NCBI GenBank assembly: GCA_021108415.1
Contig: JAIOQX010000002.1
Span: 62,001-126,000, forward strand
Reading direction: 5' to 3'
DNA length: 64,000 bases
Origin: Acholeplasmataceae bacterium
GTDB lineage: Bacteria; Bacillota_I; Bacilli_A; Acholeplasmatales; Acholeplasmataceae
Notes under the pieces: model-generated
The model's database searches: none
Told to the model about the DNA's origin: nothing
The model's input: only the letters and a program-made list of their open reading frames with translations
Shown here: in pieces, positions 2,346 through 33,804 of the stretch
Numbering within the stretch: position 1 is the first letter of the stretch
Layout of the letters: the number at the start of each line of letters is the position of its first letter
Program-made: the position numbers and the translations under genes

Positions 2346-5042
2346 TCACCCATTTACAATTTTATCACAACGATCACATAGTCCATTTTCATGAACATGA
2401 TCGACAACATTCCAGCAACGATCACATGTTTTACCATCGGCTAGAGAAACTGCTATTTCAAGTTTTTCACCAACATTTAAATTAACTTTTGAGACAATAA
2501 AAACTTGATGCGTTTTAAAATCTAATAATTCAAGAGCTTTCATTTGTTCTTTGGTTACTGTTAAATCTAGAGTTGCTTGTAGAGATTTACCAATGATCTT
2601 CTTTTCTCTTGCTTCTTCTAATCTCTTTAACGCAAGATTTCTAACATGATCAAGTACATCAAATGCTTTTAATAACTCATCATCTTTAATATCATATACT
2701 TTAGGCATTTCTTCTAAATATATATTTTCTAGTTTCTTGCCCGGAAGATATTGATACGCTTCATATGTTGTATGAGGAATGATTGGTGTTAATAGTTTAA
2801 GCATACCAAGTAATGCATCATATAAAGTTGATTGAACTGATCTTCTAATGATTCCATTTGAAGATTCTATGTATAATATATCTTTTGTGTAATCAAGGTA
2901 GAACGCACTTAACTCATTGGTCATAAATGACACGATTGAGCGATAAACTTTATCAAATTGATAATTATCATATGCATCTAAAACTTGATTAGATAATTGT
3001 TGATATTTTAATGTCATGACTTTATTTAACTGTCCACGGTCATTATATTCGATATAGTCCTTTTGTGGATCAAAGTCACTGATATTACCTAATACAAAAC
3101 GTATTGTATTTCTTATTTTTCTATAGCTTTCTGCGACTTGTGTCATCATATCATTAGAGATTCTTACATCTGATTGATAATCAACAGATGAAACCCATAA
3201 TCTTAGTATATCTGCACCTTGTTGTTTCATCAGTTTATTAGGATCAATTGTATTACCTAAAGACTTACTCATCTTTCTACCTTTAGCATCAAGTACAAAT
3301 CCATGTGATACAACTTGTTTATAAGGTGAAGTGCCATAAGCAGCTACCCCTGTGGTCAATGATGAATTAAACCATCCTCTATATTGGTCAGATCCTTCTA
3401 AATATAGGTCAGCTGGGTATGGAAGATCAAGTGTCTCTAAAAGTGCATGAGATGTTCCTGAATCAAACCAAACATCCATGATATCAGTTTCTTTTCTAAA
3501 TAAGTTATTTGGACTGCCTTTATGTGAATATCCTTTAGGAAGTAAATCTTTAGCTTCTTTTTCAAACCAAACATTTGATCCATGCTCATGAAACTCATTT
3601 GCGATATGATCTAGGACATCTTTATCTAAAATAGGTTCGTCATTTTCAGCATAAAAGATAGGGATTGGAACACCCCAAGCTCTTTGTCTTGAAATACACC
3701 AGTCTTCTCTGTTGGTAATCATATTTGATATTCTTAGTTCACCCCATAAAGGTAACCATTTCGCTTTTTTAACTTCATCAAGAAGTTCAACTTTAATTTT
3801 ATCTATACTTGCAAACCATTGAGGTGTTGCTCTAAAGATAACAGGTTTTCTAGTTCTCCAGTCATGTGGATATGAATGGGTAAATCTAGAAGATTTTAAT
3901 AAAGCATTTGTTAGATCTAAAGCTTTAACAACTTCTTCATTTGCAACTTCATAATACATACCAGAAAATTGACCAGCTTCATCTGTCATCATACCACCAT
4001 CATCAACAGGACATAAGATATCTAGATTATATTGTTTACCGATTCTATAATCATCTTCCCCGTGACCTGGAGCTGTATGTACTAAGCCTGTACCATCAGT
4101 ATCTGTCACATGATCTCCAACAATAATTGGAGAGATGCGGTCATATAATGGATGCTTATATGTGTTTAATTCTAATTCTTGCCCTTTATATCTTTTTAAG
4201 ATCTTAACATCTTCAAATCCTAATTCATTTGATACTTGTTCTAAAAGAGTTTCTGTTACAATATATTTTTTACCTTTAGTTTCAAATAAAACATAGGTAA
4301 ATCTTGGATGTACAGAAATCGCAAGATTTGCAGGAATTGTCCAAGGTGTTGTTGTCCATATGATATATGAAGCATCTTTTAAATCTTTATCATCTGATAC
4401 TGATTTAAACGCAACATATATAGAAATTGAAACTTTATCATGGTATTCAATTTCAGCTTCAGCTAAAGCTGATTCGCTTGATGGAGACCAATAAACAGGT
4501 TTTAACCCTTTATATATCAATCCTTTTTCAACCATTTTAGCAAATACAGTAACTTGTCTTGCTTCAAAATCTTTAGTTAATGTGATATAAGGATGATCCC
4601 AATCACCTAATATACCAAGTCTCATAAACTGTTCTTTTTGTTTTTCTACTTGCTCCATCGCATATTGATAACAAACTTTTCTATAATCCACTAAAGACAT
4701 CTCTTTACGATTAACACCTTTTTTGGTTACAGCAGTTTCAATAGGTAGACCATGTGTATCCCAACCTGGAATATAAGGTACATATTTACCTAACATCGTT
4801 TGATATCTTAAAACAAAGTCCTTTAAGACTTTATTTAAAGCATGGCCAATGTGAATATCCCCATTGGCATATGGTGGCCCATCATGTAAGATAAATGAAG
4901 GGTTGTTTTTGTTTTTTTCTAAGACCTTTTTATATAGATCCATTTCTTTCCATTCTTTTTGAAACTCTAATTCTCTGCTGCCTAGATTTCCACGCATAGG
5001 AAAATCTGTTTTTGGCATACTTAATGTTGATTTGTAATCCAT
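2346..5042 (-). CDS. ileS: isoleucyl-tRNA synthetase
   Basis: Class I aminoacyl-tRNA synthetase charging tRNA-Ile, about 898 residues. The HIGH signature (GDIHIGHA) is near residue 60, the KMSKS loop (KMSKSLGN) lies near residue 590, and a C-terminal zinc ribbon has two CxxC pairs (CDRCW and CDRCD). The editing (CP1) domain is present, with a WTTTPWT motif. The start at 5042 follows AAGGAGTG; a longer frame upstream runs into the T-box terminator and is not the protein start. Expression is controlled by the T-box leader directly upstream. Downstream is surE. The position after yggS-sepF matches the Firmicutes ylm-ileS order. Confidence 0.98.
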   Translation of the reverse strand: MDYKSTLSMPKTDFPMRGNLGSRELEFQKEWKEMDLYKKVLEKNKNNPSFILHDGPPYANGDIHIGHALNKVLKDFVLRYQTMLGKYVPYIPGWDTHGLPIETAVTKKGVNRKEMSLVDYRKVCYQYAMEQVEKQKEQFMRLGILGDWDHPYITLTKDFEARQVTVFAKMVEKGLIYKGLKPVYWSPSSESALAEAEIEYHDKVSISIYVAFKSVSDDKDLKDASYIIWTTTPWTIPANLAISVHPRFTYVLFETKGKKYIVTETLLEQVSNELGFEDVKILKRYKGQELELNTYKHPLYDRISPIIVGDHVTDTDGTGLVHTAPGHGEDDYRIGKQYNLDILCPVDDGGMMTDEAGQFSGMYYEVANEEVVKALDLTNALLKSSRFTHSYPHDWRTRKPVIFRATPQWFASIDKIKVELLDEVKKAKWLPLWGELRISNMITNREDWCISRQRAWGVPIPIFYAENDEPILDKDVLDHIANEFHEHGSNVWFEKEAKDLLPKGYSHKGSPNNLFRKETDIMDVWFDSGTSHALLETLDLPYPADLYLEGSDQYRGWFNSSLTTGVAAYGTSPYKQVVSHGFVLDAKGRKMSKSLGNTIDPNKLMKQQGADILRLWVSSVDYQSDVRISNDMMTQVAESYRKIRNTIRFVLGNISDFDPQKDYIEYNDRGQLNKVMTLKYQQLSNQVLDAYDNYQFDKVYRSIVSFMTNELSAFYLDYTKDILYIESSNGIIRRSVQSTLYDALLGMLKLLTPIIPHTTYEAYQYLPGKKLENIYLEEMPKVYDIKDDELLKAFDVLDHVRNLALKRLEEAREKKIIGKSLQATLDLTVTKEQMKALELLDFKTHQVFIVSKVNLNVGEKLEIAVSLADGKTCDRCWNVVDHVHENGLCDRCDKIVNG

Positions 5043-9657: not shown

Positions 9658-9722
9658 TTTATCATTTCCTTTGCTCTTGTAATTATATCATAGTTTTGAT
9701 ACAATTGTATAGTATTAAAACT

Positions 9723-9760
9723 AGCTGTACCCTAGGAAACCAGCTAAAAAAAACAGGGAG
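9723..9760 (+). promoter_or_regulatory. preQ1-type riboswitch of queT
   Basis: A compact H-type pseudoknot can be drawn. The stem TAGCTG (9722-9727) pairs with CAGCTA (9741-9746). An A-rich tail follows, and AGGG (9755-9758) can pair with CCCT in the loop (9730-9733). AGGG is part of the ribosome binding site AGGGAG of queT, so ligand-stabilised folding would block translation. The A-tail layout and the queT context match class I preQ1 switches. Exact ligand contacts were not verified. Confidence 0.75.
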
Positions 9761-9767
9761 ATAAACC

Positions 9768-10253
9768 ATGAAAAATTTTGCTTTAAAAGATTTTATTATG
9801 CAATCAATGATTGCAGCCATTTATGTTGTTTTAGTTTTTATATTTCAATTCTTAAGTTTTGAGACCATTCAATTTAGAATTGCTGAATTTCTGCTGATCT
9901 TAGTCTTTTTTGATAAAAAGAGTATTGTCGGATTATTGATCGGAACATTTCTTGCAAATTACTTAATGAGCCCTTATGGCTTAATTGATGCGCTCTTTGG
10001 AAGTCTCGCTAGCTTGTTGGCATTATCATTTATGATGATTTTTAATAGATATAAACTGATATCTCTATTATTTCCAGCTTTAGCTAATGCGATTGTTATT
10101 GGACTAATGATCTCAATCATGAATCAAATACCATTTGTTCCAATAGCTTTATGGGTATTTCTTGGTGAAGCAGTTGTGATGTATGTTGTTGGCTATCCAG
10201 TATACCTATATTTAAATAAAAACAAGCATTTTAAAGAAATGATGGGAAGCTAG
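9768..10253 (+). CDS. queT: queuosine precursor transporter QueT
   Basis: A 161-residue membrane protein with about five hydrophobic segments. It matches the QueT (COG4708) family of ECF-type substrate-binding subunits: an N-terminal AAIYVVLVF helix, RIAEFLL near residue 40, and a GTFLANYLMSPYG stretch. It would import preQ1 or a related base, working with a shared ECF energising module that is not in this window. The upstream preQ1-type switch and the divergent tgt support the assignment. The ATG follows AGGGAG. Its stop codon lies inside the terminator hairpin shared with galM. Confidence 0.9.
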   Translation: MKNFALKDFIMQSMIAAIYVVLVFIFQFLSFETIQFRIAEFLLILVFFDKKSIVGLLIGTFLANYLMSPYGLIDALFGSLASLLALSFMMIFNRYKLISLLFPALANAIVIGLMISIMNQIPFVPIALWVFLGEAVVMYVVGYPVYLYLNKNKHFKEMMGS

Positions 10254-19560: not shown

Positions 19561-19902
19561 GGGGATGTTCTGGATTCGTCACGGCATGGATTAACATATA
19601 AGCATGTCATGGTTGCTCATGTAAAAAAGCCGAGGTTATCTAATAACCGGAAACCAAAATTTTTCTTACGCTGCCTAAGAATAGGTGCGAACCAACTATG
19701 AATTTACTTACGGTTCATACGCGGTACAATTCAGTAAGTTATACTTATCAGATTTCCTAGTCTGTTAAAAGAACCCCTTTAGGATATGATGGCTGACTTT
19801 TGTTTGTTTAGTTAGTCATAAGAAAACATAAATAAAATAAACATGTAGAAAGTATGTTGAAAAGTGTTTTGCACAGGGGTTCAATTCCCCTCATCTCCAC
19901 CA
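19561..19902 (+). ncRNA. ssrA: transfer-messenger RNA
   Basis: The 5' end GGGGATG (19561-19567) pairs with CATCTCC (19892-19898), followed by A and CCA, forming the tRNA-like acceptor stem. The T-arm GGGGTTCAATTCCCC is at 19876-19890. The tmRNA hallmark CTGGATTCG follows the 5' end. The tag frame reads GNQNFSYAA then TAA (codons 19649-19675, stop 19676-19678) if GGA is the resume codon. tmRNA with SmpB frees stalled ribosomes and tags the unfinished protein for proteolysis. The last 12 bases are repeated at 23929-23940. Confidence 0.95.
19891..19902 (+). repeat. attachment-site-like repeat at the ssrA 3' end
   Basis: TCATCTCCACCA, the 3' end of tmRNA, identical to 23929-23940. CCCC precedes both copies, with one inserted T in the distal copy. 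It marks the left border of the proposed island. Confidence 0.7.
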
Positions 19903-19916
19903 TCTGCGAAGATGAC

Positions 19917-19961
19917 GCAATATGAACCCCTTGTCTTGGACAGTTCATATTGCTTTTTTTT
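19917..19961 (+). terminator. terminator after ssrA
   Basis: Perfect 11-bp stem GCAATATGAAC (19917-19927) with GTTCATATTGC (19943-19953), then eight T. The right arm overlaps the presumed left end of the IS3-type element. Confidence 0.85.
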
Positions 19962-21137
19962 ATTTTTTTATAAAATCCAACTATACTTTAATCTTTTCAT
20001 ATTCATTTGGTGTCAGATAGCCTAGTGATTTATGAACACGCTTGTTATTATAATAATCCATATACTTATCAATCGATGCTTTTAATTCATCTAGAGTTAA
20101 ATAATCATATCTATTGATTTCTTCCTTTTTCATATGCGAAAAAAAAGATTCCACTACAGCGTTATCATATGGATTGCCTGTATTGGAATAAGATGGTTTT
20201 ATTTTAAGCGATCTCATCAATGAGATATATTCATATGATGTATACTGAGTACCACGGTCACTATGAAATAATAGACCAATTGGTTCTCCTCTTGATTCAA
20301 ATGCATCCTTAAGTGTATTCATTACAAGATTTGTGTTATTTTTGTAGCTTAGTCTATACGCAACCACTTTTCTAGAGAATAAATCGATGATTACACATAA
20401 ATAATAAAAAACACTGTCCACTCTTATTGAAGTAATATCTCCTACCCACTTTTGGTTAGGAAAATCTGCTTTAAAATTTTTCTTTAAATGGTTAAATAGA
20501 AATAGATCTGTGTTAGGTTTTCGGATAAATGTTTTTTTCTTTGGCAAAATAGGACTTAGCTTCATTTCCTTCATTAAATCAGAAACTTTTCTAAGAGATA
20601 CTACAACACCACTATTTTTAAGGATTCCGCAAATGATGTTAATCCCATATCGAAAATCACTGTCAATAAATAATTCTTTTATTTTTTTCTTTAAAATGTC
20701 ATCATTTAGTTTGTCTTGTGTTGTTTTAACTCTTCTAAAATGATAATTATAAAATGTCGAATGATTAACATCCATAAGCCTACACATTGTTTTTACAGGA
20801 AATACACCATATAGATTAGATATTATTGTCATTTTTTTATCTGTATCAAGATTTGAGTGCGCGTTAATGACTTTTAGTATTTCTAATTCTGTAATGACTT
20901 TTTTATAATCATTTTTAAGTTTGAAATATGCATCAAAAGTAAATGTGTCTTCTTCTGTTCTTATTCTTTCTTTAAATAATCGTACCCACCCATAAAGGGT
21001 CGACCTTGAAATATCATACTTAATATATGTCTCTTTTGCTTTACCTGATCCCATATACTCAGTGACTACATGGATCTTGAAATTTATATCATGATTATTG
21101 TTTTTCATTAAAAATAATGCTTTTTCATAACTGTCCA
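19937..21137 (-). mobile_element. IS3-family insertion sequence, about 1.2 kb
   Basis: Ends TGGACAGTT (19937-19945) and its complement AACTGTCCA (21129-21137) form a 9-bp terminal inverted repeat, with patchy similarity continuing inward. They bracket a single transposase gene, 44 bp inside the left end. No clear target duplication is seen (TCT on the left, CGC on the right). The length fits the IS3 family. The borders are inferred from the repeat alone. Confidence 0.65.
19981..21108 (-). CDS. IS3-family transposase, single reading frame
   Basis: A 375-residue transposase with an N-terminal helix-turn-helix (FKIHVVTEY onward) and a C-terminal integrase core. The DDE residues lie in WVGDITS, LFHSDRGTQY and VVESFFSHMKKEE; the HKSLGYLTPNEYE tail is typical of IS3-group OrfB. 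Most IS3 elements split this into two overlapping frames joined by frameshifting, but here it is one uninterrupted frame. An upstream GTG at 21138 lies just outside the inverted repeat, so the ATG at 21108 is taken as start; its ribosome binding site is weak. It looks intact. Confidence 0.9.
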   Translation of the reverse strand: MKNNNHDINFKIHVVTEYMGSGKAKETYIKYDISRSTLYGWVRLFKERIRTEEDTFTFDAYFKLKNDYKKVITELEILKVINAHSNLDTDKKMTIISNLYGVFPVKTMCRLMDVNHSTFYNYHFRRVKTTQDKLNDDILKKKIKELFIDSDFRYGINIICGILKNSGVVVSLRKVSDLMKEMKLSPILPKKKTFIRKPNTDLFLFNHLKKNFKADFPNQKWVGDITSIRVDSVFYYLCVIIDLFSRKVVAYRLSYKNNTNLVMNTLKDAFESRGEPIGLLFHSDRGTQYTSYEYISLMRSLKIKPSYSNTGNPYDNAVVESFFSHMKKEEINRYDYLTLDELKASIDKYMDYYNNKRVHKSLGYLTPNEYEKIKV

Positions 21138-21425
21138 CGCTTAATCATCTCTAATTTATATATGAATTTATAATATGTCTTATTTAATCTAATCTTCTAT
21201 AGTCATCAATAAGTGCATTGAGTGCTGCTTGATCAAATCCGTAATCTATATTATGATTATCATATTTATATTATAAATCATTATCTATAAAGGGGGGAGC
21301 GTGTGTCTCACTTTTTCATAGCAGAGCGCAATTTTAGTACCCCTGTTTTTGCGCTTAACAAAAGGTCAACTTTCGAAAATGATTCTTGTGTTTACCCTAA
21401 GCGTTCCAAATTCACATACACCATA
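21138..21425. other. intergenic debris between IS and secreted-protein gene
   Basis: On the minus strand a stretch at about 21180-21270 reads YKYDNHNIDYGFDQAALNAL then IDDYRRLD and a stop, preceded by another stop in frame. It looks like the worn C-terminus of a lost gene. I cannot name the parent. Nothing else coding is seen here. Confidence 0.3.
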
Positions 21426-21454
21426 TTGATTCTTATTAGCAATAATGCTATAAT
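21426..21454 (+). promoter_or_regulatory. promoter of secreted-protein gene
   Basis: TTGATT (21426-21431), 17-bp spacer, TATAAT (21449-21454), about 30 bp before the ATG. Confidence 0.75.
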
Positions 21455-21485
21455 AATTTTAAATATAATTATCCTTGGAGGGAAA

Positions 21486-22400
21486 ATGAAAAAAATTATT
21501 GTTTTTAATCTTTTTTTGTGTGTTATTTTTGTTCTATTCGGTATAAATATCAATGCATCTCAAAATTACACTGATAACGAGCAGTTTTTTGATATAACTG
21601 AGCAGGTTATTAATAAGATAAAAATCACTAGGATCAATAGTGCTAAAGAATCAAAAGGTAAAACAAAATCTTATGAATTGGAATATCTCGAAATTGCAAA
21701 TAGATATGAATTAAATACTTGGCAAATCAAAGATCGAGATGAAATAACTATATACGAAGAATTGCTTGACGGTGAATATAGCCCCGAACAATCTGATGAA
21801 ATGATGATTAAATCAGTTGCAAATCCCGGTGAATATGATGATCCAGAAGGATATTTAACTATTAGAACAGTTATTTCTAGTGATGGATATAATTCTTTTG
21901 GTGATAAAAGTTACATCGTTACTGTAACCGTAAAGTATGCAGGTAACTATGACGATAGTTCTCAAACTCCAACTTTTGGCATAAGAGGTGAGGACAGGCT
22001 AGTAATTGGTCACGGATCAGGAGCATACTATAATTCTGAAAGGTCAAGCATTGTGGATGGGCATTATCAATTTTATAGTAAGAAACCAGCTGATTTGAGA
22101 GCTTACGTAACCACCTGGAGTGTTACACAAGGATTCTTGAGATATACAGATTTCTTAGACACAAAAGTAAATCTTGCAAATAAATTAAATGTTAATAATC
22201 ATTTTCATGGTGATAAAGAATGTATGGCAATTTATCCGATTTCTTTAACTTCAAATACTAGTTTAAATGCTGTTTACATCCATAATGAAAGACTATTTGG
22301 AGGTAAGTTATCAATTTCAGCTGGAGCATATGGATTTTCATTGAGTATTAGTGGTGCTCATACTGATTATTCAATGACACCGATTTCGTTATCAGCATAG
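21486..22400 (+). CDS. secreted protein of unknown function, 304 aa
   Basis: The ATG at 21486 follows TTGGAGGG and a clear promoter; the longer open frame upstream is not used. Residues 1-25 form a signal peptide (MKK, hydrophobic core, NAS-Q cleavage region). The mature protein has an acidic helical first part (about 30-125) and a second part rich in beta pattern, Ser, Gly and Tyr. No Cys pair, lipobox or anchor is visible, so it should be released from the cell. I do not recognise the family. It lies within the ssrA island, followed after 10 bp by a small membrane protein, and could be a partner in immunity or export (speculation). Confidence 0.75.
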   Translation: MKKIIVFNLFLCVIFVLFGININASQNYTDNEQFFDITEQVINKIKITRINSAKESKGKTKSYELEYLEIANRYELNTWQIKDRDEITIYEELLDGEYSPEQSDEMMIKSVANPGEYDDPEGYLTIRTVISSDGYNSFGDKSYIVTVTVKYAGNYDDSSQTPTFGIRGEDRLVIGHGSGAYYNSERSSIVDGHYQFYSKKPADLRAYVTTWSVTQGFLRYTDFLDTKVNLANKLNVNNHFHGDKECMAIYPISLTSNTSLNAVYIHNERLFGGKLSISAGAYGFSLSISGAHTDYSMTPISLSA

Positions 22401-22410
22401 TGAATTGTTT

Positions 22411-22593
22411 ATGAGCAAACTTTTAATTCTATTTAGAGTTTTTACTGTGCTAACTTCAATTGTTTTTATTGGATATTTTATAGGTTCTTTTAGTAATCCC
22501 ACTCATCTAGAAGAAGGATTAAATTATTTATATGCAAGTATAGCTATACATTTAATTACAACGGCAATCGATAAATTGTTTAATAAAAAATAA
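22411..22593 (+). CDS. small membrane protein, 60 aa
   Basis: Two hydrophobic helices (about residues 3-25 and 36-52) and a Lys-rich tail. It starts 10 bp after the secreted-protein gene. No good ribosome binding site is seen before the ATG, so translation may depend on coupling. Its position suggests a functional link with the secreted protein. No family recognised. Confidence 0.5.
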   Translation: MSKLLILFRVFTVLTSIVFIGYFIGSFSNPTHLEEGLNYLYASIAIHLITTAIDKLFNKK

Positions 22594-22644
22594 TCTTTAA
22601 TATACAATTTCCTTAAGCATCAAATATTACCACTATATAAATGG

Positions 22645-22682
22645 AACACCACTTAGAGAATAACTCTAGGTGGTGTTTTTTT
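22645..22682 (+). terminator. terminator after the small membrane protein
   Basis: 14-bp stem AACACCACTTAGAG with CTCTAGGTGGTGTT, then a T-run. Confidence 0.85.
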
Positions 22683-23250
22683 ATGAGGTGTTGAATTGCT
22701 CTGCTATGAAAAACACGACACCTATCCCTCTTCAATGGTTTAAAAAAGAGAATTTAAAATTAAAGCTGTGTCCGAAATGTGCTATTCTAATAGTAACTTT
22801 GTTAAAGAACGTAAAAACTGCTACGAAAACATTGAAAACATTTAGCACACCTACGTGCGAAGGTGATACAATATAAACTCTTGTACAAATATACATCAAA
22901 ATTAAATACATGAATTGATATTTATCCCTATACTTATATTTTAAAAAATCTTTAATTTTTTTTGTTAAATCTCACTTCTCCTCAACATAAACTCATTATT
23001 TCCACTTCCACCCAATATCACTATTTAGAATATATGATTATTAGGATAAGAAAAAGTTTAGATTCAATTTCAATAGAGATATTCTTATATTTTAAACAAT
23101 TAAAAACAATAAAAAGTTACTATTTAGGCATATATTTTATATATTTCTGCTATATAGACACAGCAACTTGGGTATGACAAGACAGATTTGTTTTTTAGAG
23201 CATTTATTCCTTTAATAAAAGAATTTAAGTGTTTATTTTTTTGTACCGCA
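22683..23250. other. gene-poor stretch with decayed fragments
   Basis: No convincing gene. Near 22720-22850 short pieces in two frames read KLCPKC and YSNSNFVKERKNCYENIENI, recalling the zinc-ribbon start of a transposase broken by a frameshift. Near 23170-23235 a piece reads YDKTDLFFRAFIPLIKEF. Both are short and degenerate, and parentage is unproven. The rest is very AT-rich. Confidence 0.25.
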
Positions 23251-23304
23251 CAAAATATATGTTATTATTAAATTAACAATAGATAAGCAAATGAAAGGTA
23301 AATT

Positions 23305-23868
23305 ATGTTCCTAAAATCAGGCGATGGTAAAATCATTTTAAGAGATATATCAAAAAAAGATGTTAATGATTATATAATTTGGAATACTGAAATTGTAGAA
23401 TGGCAAAATTGGGATGCACCATGGGAAGAAGATACGTTAACCAAAGTGCACATTGAGGAAAAGTACTTAAAAATTCTTAGTAAATCTACTACATTAGATC
23501 CAAAAATGATTAGAAAAAGATTTGAAATCTGTATAAACGATAATGACAACACACATATTGGTTGGATCATATTTTATTATATTGATGAAAATTTCAAATA
23601 TATAAAACAAAAAGGATTTTGCACCATAGGTTTAGATATCCCAGATCCTTCACATAGAAAAAAAGGTTATGGTACTTCTGCTATAATAACTTATATTAAT
23701 TATTTGAAATCTCATAATATAGAAGAATTTTATATCCAAACATGGAGCGGAAACCTTGCGATGGTAAGCCTTGCTAATAAATTAGGATTCGTAGAATGCA
23801 ATAGATATTCTAATTTTAAAGTTGTCAATAACAAAAAATACGATTCAATTACTTTGAAACTAGTTTAG
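23305..23868 (+). CDS. GNAT-family acetyltransferase
   Basis: A 187-residue N-acetyltransferase of the RimJ/RimL-like type. The acetyl-CoA loop is HRKKGYGTSA (near residue 113), preceded by the strand TIGLDIPD and followed by SGNLAMVSLANKLGF, the usual motif B. The substrate could be a protein N-terminus, an antibiotic or a small amine. The ATG follows AAAGGT, and TTGTAC-16 bp-TATTAT upstream is a plausible promoter. It is the last gene of the ssrA island, a common place for carried resistance-type genes. Confidence 0.85.
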   Translation: MFLKSGDGKIILRDISKKDVNDYIIWNTEIVEWQNWDAPWEEDTLTKVHIEEKYLKILSKSTTLDPKMIRKRFEICINDNDNTHIGWIIFYYIDENFKYIKQKGFCTIGLDIPDPSHRKKGYGTSAIITYINYLKSHNIEEFYIQTWSGNLAMVSLANKLGFVECNRYSNFKVVNNKKYDSITLKLV

Positions 23869-23928
23869 AGATAATATCTTTCTGAAAATTTAATTGTTAT
23901 TTTTGTGCCCCACGTGGTACATACCCCT

Positions 23929-23940
23929 TCATCTCCACCA
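23929..23940 (+). repeat. distal copy of the ssrA 3' end
   Basis: TCATCTCCACCA, identical to 19891-19902, with CCCCT before it. It marks the right border of the proposed island and is followed directly by a strong terminator that may have been the original ssrA terminator. Confidence 0.7.
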
Positions 23941-23953
23941 AACCAGAACATAA

Positions 23954-23985
23954 AAAAGAGCCTAAATTAGGCTCTTTTATTTTTT
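23954..23985. terminator. bidirectional terminator at the island edge
   Basis: GAGCCTAA/TTAGGCTC stem flanked by A-run and T-run. It serves psuG on the minus strand and possibly ancestral ssrA on the plus strand. Confidence 0.8.
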
Positions 23986-24016
23986 TATCAGAAAACTAAT
24001 CTAATTATTTAAATCT

Positions 24017-24943
24017 CTATTTCATTAAATCTTGATAAGCTTTTGCAAGTTGTCCACCAACTTTAGCATTATTATATACTAACGCTAAGTTTGCTTGTAG
24101 ACTTTTTCCTTTAGTTTCTTCTACGATTTTCTTAAGAAGATATGGTGTGACATCTTTTCCTTCAACTTGATCAACAACGCTTTGTTTAACAGCTCTAGCA
24201 ATAATATCGTTCATATAATCACTATCAAGTGAATCCGATTCAGGAATAGGATTTGCAACTAATATGCCACCTTTTAAATTAAGCTTTTCTTTTGTGTAAA
24301 TAATCTTAGCTAAATCTTCAACTTGATCAACAAAAAGTCTTAATTTAATGTCTGAAGTTCTTGAAAAGAAAGCTGGTAGAACTTTTGTTTGATATCCAAC
24401 AACAGAAACACCTTTTGTCTCTAAATATTCCATCGTTCTTGGTAAGTCGAGAATTGCTTTAGCACCAGCACAAATGACAGCTACATTAGTCTGTGATAAT
24501 TCTTCTAAGTCAGCTGATACATCAAGTGTGTTTTCATAGCCTTTATGAACACCACCAATACCACCTGTTACAAAGAACTTAATGTTAGCCATTTCTGCAC
24601 AAATCATCGTAGATGCAACTGTAGTTGCTCCTAATTGTTTCATCGCAATCACAGATGCCATATCACGTCTAGAAACTTTAACTGCATCTTTTGATTTTGC
24701 AAGTGTTTCTAAATCTTCATCGGTTAATCCGATTTTAATTTTACCATCCATAATAGCGATTGTAGCAGGTACTGCACCTTGTTCTCTAATAATTTGTTCA
24801 ACCTTTTTTGCCATAACAACATTATCTGGATAAGGCATCCCATGAGAAATAATTGTTGATTCTAGTGCAACCACCGGTAAATTATTTTTAAGTGCTTCTT
24901 TTACTTCTGCTTTAATGTCTAAAAATTGTTCATACGTTTTCAT
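24017..24943 (-). CDS. psuG: pseudouridine-5'-phosphate glycosidase
   Basis: Splits pseudouridine 5'-phosphate into uracil and ribose-5-phosphate. Family motifs are ALESTIISHGMPYP (near residue 22), KVSRRDM, GATTVASTM, FVTGGIGGVH (near 130) and the C-terminal NIALVYNNA-like stretch. Length, 308 residues, is standard. The gene overlaps the end of the kinase gene by 14 bp, so the two are translated together. A paired psuK-psuG forms the complete cytoplasmic pathway. Confidence 0.97.
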   Translation of the reverse strand: MKTYEQFLDIKAEVKEALKNNLPVVALESTIISHGMPYPDNVVMAKKVEQIIREQGAVPATIAIMDGKIKIGLTDEDLETLAKSKDAVKVSRRDMASVIAMKQLGATTVASTMICAEMANIKFFVTGGIGGVHKGYENTLDVSADLEELSQTNVAVICAGAKAILDLPRTMEYLETKGVSVVGYQTKVLPAFFSRTSDIKLRLFVDQVEDLAKIIYTKEKLNLKGGILVANPIPESDSLDSDYMNDIIARAVKQSVVDQVEGKDVTPYLLKKIVEETKGKSLQANLALVYNNAKVGGQLAKAYQDLMK

Positions 24944-26033
24944 ATTTTTTAATCTCCTTTTTTAATTGATTTATTGATAATTTTGGATTAACTGCGTGAT
25001 TTGATTGAATCGTTAAACTTGAGCTTACTGCGCCATAACTAATGCTAGTATCTAATGGTTCTTCGTTAATTAGGCCATGTAATACTGCACTACTAAATGC
25101 ATCGCCTGCGCCTGTGACATCTATAACTTTATCTTCATTAACTAAATAAGCTTTTTGATGTTTTATGCCTTTGCCGTCATAATAGATAGATCCTTTTTTA
25201 CCTTGGGTAATAATGACTTTTTTAAGTCCTTTATTTATCCAAAGGTTAACAAGAGTCTCTAAGTCTTCTTCATCAGTTTTAAAGTAGCTTTGACTTTCAT
25301 CTAGATTACAAATTAAGATCTCTACTCCATTTAAGTCATCTGGAACATGCTTCATCTTAGGTCCAGATACTCCAATAATTGCTAGTTTTTTGTTCTCTGC
25401 TTGTGCATATTCGATTAAAGCTTCAAGTGCATCTTTTGTGATATTCGTATCAGCAATGATCCATTTGCTTAAATTTAGATGTCTTTTGTGTTCTAATATC
25501 CAATTTCGATTCATATGACGATTGATTGACATATCTGCAAATCCAACATCCATATTTCCTTCTTTATTTATAACAGAATAATATCCACCTGTGTTTTCAT
25601 GTTTTATCCTATCACATGCAAACACTTCCATAGTTTTCTTAGCATATGATAATAAATCTTCACCAGCAAGATCATCTCCCAAGACAGTCATTAGAGAAAC
25701 TAAGTGATTTAATCTTGTTAGATTATCAGCGACATTTCTAATAACACCACCATAAGATATTGATGAGTTAACAGGATTAGATGTCGATAATATCATTTTA
25801 TCTTCTAATCTAAACGTATAATCTATGTTAGCTCCACCAATACATGTGATATACTCTTCTGTTTTTAAAACATATGGTTTACCAAGTATATATCCTTTTT
25901 CTTGCAAGCCAGAAATTAAGTTTGCGATTGCTGGTCTAGATAATTTCATTTGATCTGCTATAAACTGCTGACTTACATATGGATCTTCTTTCAAGATTGC
26001 AAGTACCTTTTTTTCTTTTTCGTTTAATTTCAT
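24930..26033 (-). CDS. psuK: pseudouridine kinase with N-terminal helix-turn-helix
   Basis: PfkB-family sugar kinase, 367 residues. The N-terminal 55 residues form a winged helix-turn-helix (EKEKKVLAILKEDPYVS, then SRPAIANLISGLQEKGYI). The kinase part shows GGANIDYT, the second signature DVTGAGDAFSSA with the catalytic Asp near residue 310, and NDLNGVE-type loops. Context with psuG makes pseudouridine the probable substrate. The DNA-binding domain suggests it also controls its own operon, as in some E. coli YeiI-like kinases. The ATG at 26033 follows AGGAT; the longer frame is less likely. Confidence 0.93.
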   Translation of the reverse strand: MKLNEKEKKVLAILKEDPYVSQQFIADQMKLSRPAIANLISGLQEKGYILGKPYVLKTEEYITCIGGANIDYTFRLEDKMILSTSNPVNSSISYGGVIRNVADNLTRLNHLVSLMTVLGDDLAGEDLLSYAKKTMEVFACDRIKHENTGGYYSVINKEGNMDVGFADMSINRHMNRNWILEHKRHLNLSKWIIADTNITKDALEALIEYAQAENKKLAIIGVSGPKMKHVPDDLNGVEILICNLDESQSYFKTDEEDLETLVNLWINKGLKKVIITQGKKGSIYYDGKGIKHQKAYLVNEDKVIDVTGAGDAFSSAVLHGLINEEPLDTSISYGAVSSSLTIQSNHAVNPKLSINQLKKEIKKYENV

Positions 26034-26061
26034 AAAACACATCCTATTTATGTTTATTTTC

Positions 26062-26110
26062 AAACATTTGTTTATATAATCATTATATATTAAAAAATCT
26101 CATTTGTAAA
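26062..26110 (-). promoter_or_regulatory. psuKG promoter with inverted repeat
   Basis: TTTACA (26105-26110), 17-bp spacer, TATAAT (26082-26087) on the minus strand. Just downstream is AAACAAATGTTT (26062-26073), whose AAACA/TGTTT arms could bind the helix-turn-helix of PsuK (inference). Confidence 0.7.
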
Positions 26111-31623: not shown

Positions 31624-33804
31624 CTATGATTTAGATGGTTTTGCAATTTTAATAAATACCTTTGCGATTTCTGGATCAAATTGTGTTCCTGAACATCTAA
31701 CAATCTCTTTGATTGCATCGTCATGTGACATCTTCTCTTTATAAGGTCTTTTTGCAGTCATCGCTTCATAAGAATCCGCAATACAAATAATTCTTGAAAA
31801 CAATGGAATATCTTTTCCCTTTTTTCCACTTGGATATCCCTTACCATCCCATCGTTCATGATGATATAATGAATGAATTGCAAGATCAGAATATTCATCA
31901 GCTGCTCTTAAGATTTGGTATGAGATTTCAGGATGTGTTTTTATGATTTCAAACTCCTCGTGAGTTAGTTTACCTGGTTTATTTAAAATTTCATCAGGAA
32001 TTGATATTTTACCAATATCATGATACATACCTGCAAGTTCCAATTCTTTCAAATCTTCACTTTTTATTCCAAGCGCTACACCAATTTTTTTACATAATTT
32101 GCTAACTCTTTCACTATGTATTCTCTCTGTATCATATTTACTTGTTAATGTTTTTAAAATAGCGTTAATTGTTTGGCTTCTAACGCTTGTTCCTTCTGCA
32201 ATTTTATGTCTATACATATGATTTTCTGCAAGTTTCAATAATTCATCTAAATTCTCTTCTGAATATTTGTTTTTAATTTCAAAACCTGTAGCCACTGATA
32301 ATATAATATTTTGAGTCGGATTCTTTTTCAAATTTAGTTTAATGACTTCTTTAATTTCTTGAAGTTCATCAAATGTTATATTCGGAATAATAACTCCAAA
32401 CTCATCTCCACCAAATCTTGCGATTATATCTTGAGGTCTAAAAGACTTTGTTAGTATACTTGCAATTTTTTGCAAAGCTAAATCTCCGATGGCATGTCCA
32501 TACGCGTCATTGATAATCTTTAATCCATTGACATCAATCATCATCACACCTAATGGATAATTTGCTTTATGATCAAGTTTATTAAATTCTTCAATAAATG
32601 ATCTTCTATTATGTAATCCTGTTAAATAGTCGTGATTTCCTTGATAAATTAATAAATTTTCATATTCTTGCAATTCAGTAATATCCTTAATGACACCTAA
32701 CACTTTATGAGGTTGTCCTTTTTCGTTATAAGATAACTGTGCTTTAGAATGGATGCGTTTCTTCTTACTTGGTGTATTGAGTGTAAAAGTTACATCATAT
32801 TTTTCATTTTTTTGAATGAGATTAATTAAAGCTTCATTCATCATTTCTTCATCTTCATCTGCAACCATTTTGTGGACTTCTTTATAGTCGATATAGTTAG
32901 AAGTCTGTTTTAATTCATAGATTTTAAATGCTTCTGTTGAAGCCCAAATCTTTTTGGTTTGAATATCAAGCTCCCACGATCCAGATTGTGCAATCGCTTG
33001 AGAACGATTTAAACGATCCTCGCTATCTACAATTGCTTTTTGAAGATTTGCATCTTCAATGAGCATATCGATCGGTTCCACAACGCTCATTAAGCGTGTG
33101 ATTGCAATAATTTCAATAAACGCAAACAATCTAAACATATGACCAAAGAAATTTAGTAGACCAAAAAAGTCTTCATAGCCTATAAATAATGATTGCCCGA
33201 TAATTAAAAGTATAAATGCTGCAATCCATCTATGATATATAGATTTTTCAAAATTATCTTTTTTCAAATATAATAAATAAATTGATACCAAATAGAGCAA
33301 AACAGTTATGATTTCTGAAGCTATTTTAAAGGCTGTATGTCCTTGTCCAATGATGTATGCATCAGGAAACACTCTTAAATAAATTAATACGATGGAAAAT
33401 GTAGCAAGTCCTATAATTATAAATAACGACTTATATATAGTCGTTTCTTTATCAAAAATTTGTAGTCCGACGATAAATCCAATTGCCAATACAAAATTTG
33501 CAACTATCCATAATTGCAGTGATAAATTTGGTCCATATCCCGTCATTAAATCTAATCCTTCATAAGCTAGCGAATGCAGAAATATGACAACTGCAGAAAA
33601 CAATACAAACACACTGAACACTTTTACTAATTTATTACGATTAAGTCTTTGTGCAACATGACTTGTAAAATAAATTAAAACCCCTATTAATAACATAGAT
33701 ACTTCAACCAATAAGTGAAATAAATTATAGTTTAATAAGGTTAATAAGTATGACAAGATAGTCAATACAACGGCTATGCTTATAATTAAAATGGGTTTTT
33801 TCAT
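31624..33804 (-). CDS. membrane sensor with PAS, GGDEF and HD-GYP domains
   Basis: 726 residues. The N-terminal part (1-250) has about eight membrane helices with the MASE3-like marks FLHSLAYEG and NLSLQLWIVA. A PAS domain follows (about 265-385, SGSWELDIQTKKIW). The GGDEF domain (395-545) keeps RFGGDEFG and an RxxD inhibition site (RPQD) five residues before it. The HD-GYP domain (555-720) has YHDIGK and HHERWDGKGYP. All motifs for making and breaking cyclic di-GMP are intact, so one protein could do both under sensor control. Such genes are absent from most mycoplasmas. Confidence 0.93.
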   Translation of the reverse strand: MKKPILIISIAVVLTILSYLLTLLNYNLFHLLVEVSMLLIGVLIYFTSHVAQRLNRNKLVKVFSVFVLFSAVVIFLHSLAYEGLDLMTGYGPNLSLQLWIVANFVLAIGFIVGLQIFDKETTIYKSLFIIIGLATFSIVLIYLRVFPDAYIIGQGHTAFKIASEIITVLLYLVSIYLLYLKKDNFEKSIYHRWIAAFILLIIGQSLFIGYEDFFGLLNFFGHMFRLFAFIEIIAITRLMSVVEPIDMLIEDANLQKAIVDSEDRLNRSQAIAQSGSWELDIQTKKIWASTEAFKIYELKQTSNYIDYKEVHKMVADEDEEMMNEALINLIQKNEKYDVTFTLNTPSKKKRIHSKAQLSYNEKGQPHKVLGVIKDITELQEYENLLIYQGNHDYLTGLHNRRSFIEEFNKLDHKANYPLGVMMIDVNGLKIINDAYGHAIGDLALQKIASILTKSFRPQDIIARFGGDEFGVIIPNITFDELQEIKEVIKLNLKKNPTQNIILSVATGFEIKNKYSEENLDELLKLAENHMYRHKIAEGTSVRSQTINAILKTLTSKYDTERIHSERVSKLCKKIGVALGIKSEDLKELELAGMYHDIGKISIPDEILNKPGKLTHEEFEIIKTHPEISYQILRAADEYSDLAIHSLYHHERWDGKGYPSGKKGKDIPLFSRIICIADSYEAMTAKRPYKEKMSHDDAIKEIVRCSGTQFDPEIAKVFIKIAKPSKS

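Follow-up and report, generated by a model that had tools for sequence, protein, structure and literature searches.

How did the tail of a tmRNA gene come to be repeated some 4 kb downstream of itself, and what brought in the DNA that lies between the two copies? The window that we analysed, a stretch of 64,000 nucleotides, comes from the 1.78-Mb genome (99.85% complete) of an Acholeplasmataceae-like bacterium and carries an intact ssrA whose last 12 bases, TCATCTCCACCA, occur at the end of the gene (19891-19902) and again, exactly, at 23929-23940. An initial annotation, based on the letters alone, had pointed out this recurrence and the strong terminator that follows it, both of which we confirm, and took the intervening segment for a decayed island that had displaced the old terminator of ssrA. 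We consider it highly probable that the segment 19903-23940 was inserted at the 3' end of ssrA by site-specific recombination and that it belongs to a family of integrase-less islands with shared ends. What decides for insertion is the comparative evidence, from relatives and from a shared end, and not the 12-mer alone. The features concerned are as follows.

19561-19902, + strand: ssrA (tmRNA), intact (ARAGORN; Rfam RF00023, 137.5 bits); its 3' end is the target and the attB half of the proximal junction
19878-19902, + strand: proximal copy of the 25-nt repeat, of which 12 nt are exact (repeat comparison)
19903-19962, + strand: island-side (P') arm, with AACCCC inverted to GGGGTT of the T arm, carrying a strong terminator (repeat and terminator analysis)
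19981-21138, - strand: IS3-family transposase, 385 aa, single open frame, sole genomic copy (NF033516; Pfam)
21257-21327, + strand: right-end remnant of a second IS3-family element, 71 bp, 94% (DNA similarity)
21435-22688, + strand: cargo block; contig G008:C42, from another genus, matches it at 88.5% DNA identity (DNA search)
21486-22400, + strand: orphan protein with N-terminal signal-like segment, 304 aa (ORF; family searches empty)
22411-22593, + strand: small hydrophobic (membrane) protein, 60 aa (ORF)
22696-22757, + strand: left-end remnant of the second IS3-family element, 62 bp, 86%, same orientation as the right-end remnant
22848-22893, + strand: tentatively, a decayed att/P' copy inside the island, similar to 19898-19950 (its score is reached in 14/500 and 1/1000 shuffles)
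23305-23868, + strand: GNAT acetyltransferase, 187 aa, open frame (PF13302, 3.5e-13)
23853-23943, + strand: distal (P) arm plus core (DNA search)
23929-23940, + strand: distal copy of the exact 12-mer, the displaced ssrA 3' end (exact match)
23941-23986, + strand: former downstream flank of ssrA (B') with terminator, which may also serve psuG on the other strand (terminator stem 13 nt past the repeat)

Compared without gaps, the repeat reaches 25 nt at 80% identity (19878-19902 against 23916-23940). A shuffle test made the 12-mer seem impossible by chance, which is misleading given that a whole-genome count finds 11 copies, and because of these copies the 12-mer by itself is weak evidence. Eight of the 11, all outside the window, fall in long open frames, on the strand opposite Gly-Gly-Asp codons, and a third in-window copy at 32402, missed by the initial annotation, likewise lies opposite the GGDEF motif encoded by the gene 31624-33804; as a farther island border this copy was ruled out on account of its GGDEF codons. 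It might be held that nothing was inserted at all, i.e. that the 12-mer at 23929 is a chance copy, that the terminator beyond it belongs to psuG, and that the genes came piecemeal by IS activity. The abundance of the 12-mer in the genome speaks for this account, as does the native composition of 19903-23940 (GC 0.286 vs 0.302 ± 0.012; codon-usage z -1.5 to +0.5), which had been proposed as a check and lends the insertion no support, although foreign composition is common in such islands rather than strictly defining. Gly-Gly-Asp codons, however, account for nine of the 11 copies, and the only non-coding ones genome-wide are those at ssrA and at 23929.

The terminators can be read in more than one way. 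The distal one (23954-23978; -14 kcal/mol, z -5.6, followed by a T run) lies convergent to psuG (24017-24943) and so could be that gene's own. A second strong terminator (19917-19961; -17.1 kcal/mol, z -3.7), also missed initially, lies on the island side of the proximal junction. It is on inserted DNA and now serves ssrA; the insertion did not leave the gene without a terminator, since the inserted DNA supplies one.

To place the locus among its relatives, we compared the surroundings of ssrA in 16 of them (one genome per species). A HAD gene upstream of ssrA is kept in 13 of the 16, while the genes 3' of it form a different set in every one, and the island genes follow ssrA in none (0/16), so that the genes between ssrA and psuG are not part of a core genome shared with these relatives. 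Downstream of ssrA lie a type IIG restriction enzyme and an HKD/Snf2 helicase in G002, a transposase in G003, small unknowns in G001 (same genus as the window's genome), and an acyltransferase and regulators in G004, the closest relative (ssrA 95%); a restriction enzyme, AbiH and candidate defence genes are all found at ssrA among relatives. The initial annotation expected relatives to join ssrA directly to its terminator. This holds for the spacing, as a terminator stem begins 10-15 nt after ssrA in nine of the 16 (13 nt in G004), and the stem beyond the window's distal repeat begins 13 nt later, the same distance as in G004, which fits a displaced ssrA flank (ssrA formerly joined to 23941). 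It does not hold for psuGK, which is absent from the window's position in the relatives fetched, and for this reason the outer border of the island rests on att homology. As to psuG/psuK themselves (24017-26063), PsuG is nearest to that of G046, a member of another family (90% protein, 78% DNA), compared with 78-83% for same-genus copies and 55% for G004; the pair is not at the window's place in G004 or G021, and by these sequence comparisons it was probably acquired too.

The distal end is shared with another genus. A DNA search with 22690-23990, whose remaining matches were GNAT genes, aligned the distal arm and core with the second ssrA-linked att site of G021, which lies 1.1 kb beyond that genome's ssrA, at 90% identity across 92 columns (E 2e-28); with the core excluded, the P arms of the two score 111 vs 20.1 ± 3.6 in shuffles. 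A block of this length shared with an ssrA-linked repeat of another genus contradicts the account in which nothing was inserted, to which we give very little credence. Insertion at the ssrA end with displacement of the old terminator is thus upheld by the HAD-ssrA synteny, the differing downstream genes, the terminator spacing and the end shared with G021.

In G021, three direct copies of the tmRNA end CCCCTCATCTCCACCA, at ssrA (0), +1113 and +3521, delimit a tandem array. Its first unit (0 to +1113) carries an APH-like kinase and ends in the same P arm as the window island (the P-arm sequence of the family is GTGCCCCACGTGGTRCATACCCCYTCATCTCCACCA), while the second (+1113 to +3521), probably a defence or toxin module, carries DUF6932, PDC-M63B and PBECR4 genes. 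In G001 the repeat recurs with one mismatch ~1.34 kb past ssrA, and the arm next to it is similar, though not significantly so on its own. At the other end, the P'-arm sequence AAACTAACCCYTATGTA is significantly common to two G021 sites, G003 and G001 (51 vs 16.9 ± 2.9 in shuffles for G021/G003; 40 vs 18.9 ± 3.4 for G001), and the window's own P' arm keeps only AACCCC and is not significantly similar to the others in pairwise comparison. A sequence model of core and P' arm, applied to 395 genomes of the class, found one clear site beyond those of G003 and G000, in G006; those of its lower matches that were inspected are ssrA ends, and the rest are near chance. The G006 site (G006:C33:131687; L322 ~9690-9810), where the tmRNA-end core is followed by a P' arm and terminator that closely resemble the ones past ssrA in G002, lies 104 kb from ssrA and adjoins RHS-type genes and rsmD. 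Elsewhere, G159 has the tmRNA-end core plus ~18 further identical bases twice on the same strand, at ssrA and 139 kb away (G159:C3:24744, L288; 164080, L289).

Under insertion, a circular element that also contained the final 12-16 nt of ssrA would have recombined with the chromosomal ssrA end, restoring the gene and giving it a new terminator, while the old end and terminator would have been pushed to 23929-23986; the site before insertion would read ssrA-TCATCTCCACCA-AACCAGAACATAAAAAAGAGCC. The family would consist of small integrase-less islands with interchangeable cargo, placed singly or in tandem at ssrA in Acholeplasmataceae and perhaps still mobile at present. The enzyme that moves them would most likely act in trans, as a tyrosine integrase encoded by a phage, a satellite or a conjugative element, and IS elements would also have entered the window's copy.

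As the initial annotation stated, no integrase is recognised among the island ORFs, and the search that it proposed for an integrase pseudogene (tblastn with three integrases) yielded none within the island (best E 0.049, inside the transposase). The lack of an integrase could also be explained by an autonomous island at ssrA, a phage satellite or an integrative mobilizable element, having lost its integrase and most of its genes through IS activity. Such a history accords with the two IS3-family elements, one of them reduced to its ends with cargo between, and with a 6.3-kb element in G043 (L283 6804-13132) that lies between the same repeats at ssrA and bears a tyrosine integrase, a repressor-like gene and AbiH. 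This G043 element is likely a satellite or small integrative element and indicates that, within the order, tyrosine integrases do use this site; its core is the same but its arms differ from those of window-type units, and its enzyme therefore need not act on them. The loss of an integrase is nevertheless rather doubtful in our view: no remnant of one is left in the island, and the integrase-less units with similar arms in G021 and G001, at 1.1-1.3 kb, are too small to have room for an integrase in addition to their cargo, a point in favour of non-autonomous units that are mobilised in trans. Given such cassettes in other genomes, the island may always have been non-autonomous. The description of it as decayed is apt in part, for the two IS remnants, but the transposase and GNAT frames are open, and that the island is locked in place, as the initial annotation held probable, is no more than a possibility.

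No recombinase with window-type arms was found in the genomes compared, nor any parent ICE or IME with the same att sites. Among viral contigs, the ssrA tail gave 56 matches, with no similar arms and no integrase flagged by a simple motif screen, an uninformative result, and the P-arm and P'-arm patterns gave no match. The host genome has seven tyrosine-recombinase matches; the three examined, which lie in inovirus-like regions (two of these being identical tandem copies), have no such att sites nearby. One inovirus-like region (G000:C1:424000-443500; L325) is present in two identical tandem copies, each with a tyrosine recombinase.

The contents are otherwise as first listed (an IS3 element, an orphan secreted protein, a small membrane protein, gene fragments and a GNAT gene), with the addition that both ends of a second IS3-family element are among the fragments. 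The transposase is a full-length IS3 transposase (NF033516, 320.8 bits against a cut-off of 160, positions 2-369 of 369). A copy of the second element with both ends is found at G000:C2:39753-41162, and its two remnants in the window enclose the block of secreted and membrane proteins, the limits of which (21435-22688) nearly coincide with them. Neither protein has a match in Pfam, NCBIfam or PHROG, and a single-sequence fold of the secreted protein (pLDDT 31) was discarded. Relatives of the latter occur only in G008, where the gene is broken by stops on contig C42, and, weakly, in G019 among 160 genomes of the order (the window's own aside), and it is absent from the four other same-genus genomes. 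A short stretch 92 nt past ssrA in G019 (L039 ~4140-4175) resembles the terminator end of the secreted-protein block (0/500 shuffles) and, on this resemblance, may be what is left of that cargo beside ssrA in a different genus.

A division of the island into two tandem units, compatible with insertion by site-specific recombination, is quite possible, though we do not favour it: one unit (19903-~22850) would hold the IS3 element and the secreted-protein cargo, and the other (~22850-23940) would be a 1.1-kb GNAT cassette, with a decayed att site between them. The P'-like copy at 22848-22893 is in register with the proximal junction, and the resulting GNAT unit would have the length and the terminal sequence of G021's 1.1-kb kinase unit; the shuffle statistics of that copy are weak, however, and no tmRNA core is recognisable at 22850.

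Taken as an integrase-less island at ssrA, the locus makes ssrA, in the wall-less Acholeplasma-like bacteria, a probable hot spot of acquired genes and of defence genes. Small units of this kind would escape standard island finders, which need an integrase gene or odd composition, and the arms that they share offer a way to trace the recombinase responsible for their movement.

How does the island compare with known systems? By type it is an ssrA-targeted CIME, probably non-autonomous. CIMEs lack integration and transfer genes, keep their att sites, build up in tandem series at a gene's 3' end, and are defined as derivatives of ICEs or IMEs (PMC5704250); the window island likewise keeps both att sites and has no integration or transfer genes, but no ICE or IME parent was found for it. 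As an integration target, the tmRNA gene shows stronger enrichment than tRNA genes of any type, and in Islander tDNA islands the restored tmRNA gene and a displaced 3' fragment mark both ends, with an integrase gene demanded inside (PMC4383910). The window has the intact ssrA and the displaced fragment in direct orientation, around a segment absent there in relatives, but for want of an internal integrase it would be filtered out, and it differs from many tDNA islands in its native composition.

Integron cassettes are small, hold one or few genes such as those for acetyltransferases or phosphotransferases, and have shared ends. The units described here resemble them in size, shared ends and acetyltransferase- or phosphotransferase-type cargo, a resemblance only; their core is the tmRNA 3' end, with no GTTRRRY / RYYYAAC attC by eye and no IntI beside it. 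It is unlikely, though conceivable, that Acholeplasmataceae possess an integron-like ssrA cassette system, in which an unlinked recombinase would carry ~1-kb units from genus to genus; these would always lack an integrase, stand in tandem, have bipartite ends that are conserved, and hold single genes or defence modules that can take each other's place.

The nearest precedent is the tandem ssrA islands of Dehalococcoides, which follow ssrA with direct repeats of its 3' end and, next to the repeat, a conserved motif; 15 of these islands have no integration module and were proposed to be possibly cis-mobilizable, and the integrase, a CcrB-type serine recombinase, resides in an integration module of 9-11 kb (McMurdie et al., 2011; PMC3146451). 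Repeats of the ssrA end, a motif beside the repeat and the lack of an integration module in some islands are common to both systems, whereas the units here are of ~1-4 kb and have no linked recombinase. The element thus looks like a kind already known but new to this bacterial group, and cassette ends shared across genera would strike a specialist as interesting rather than very surprising.
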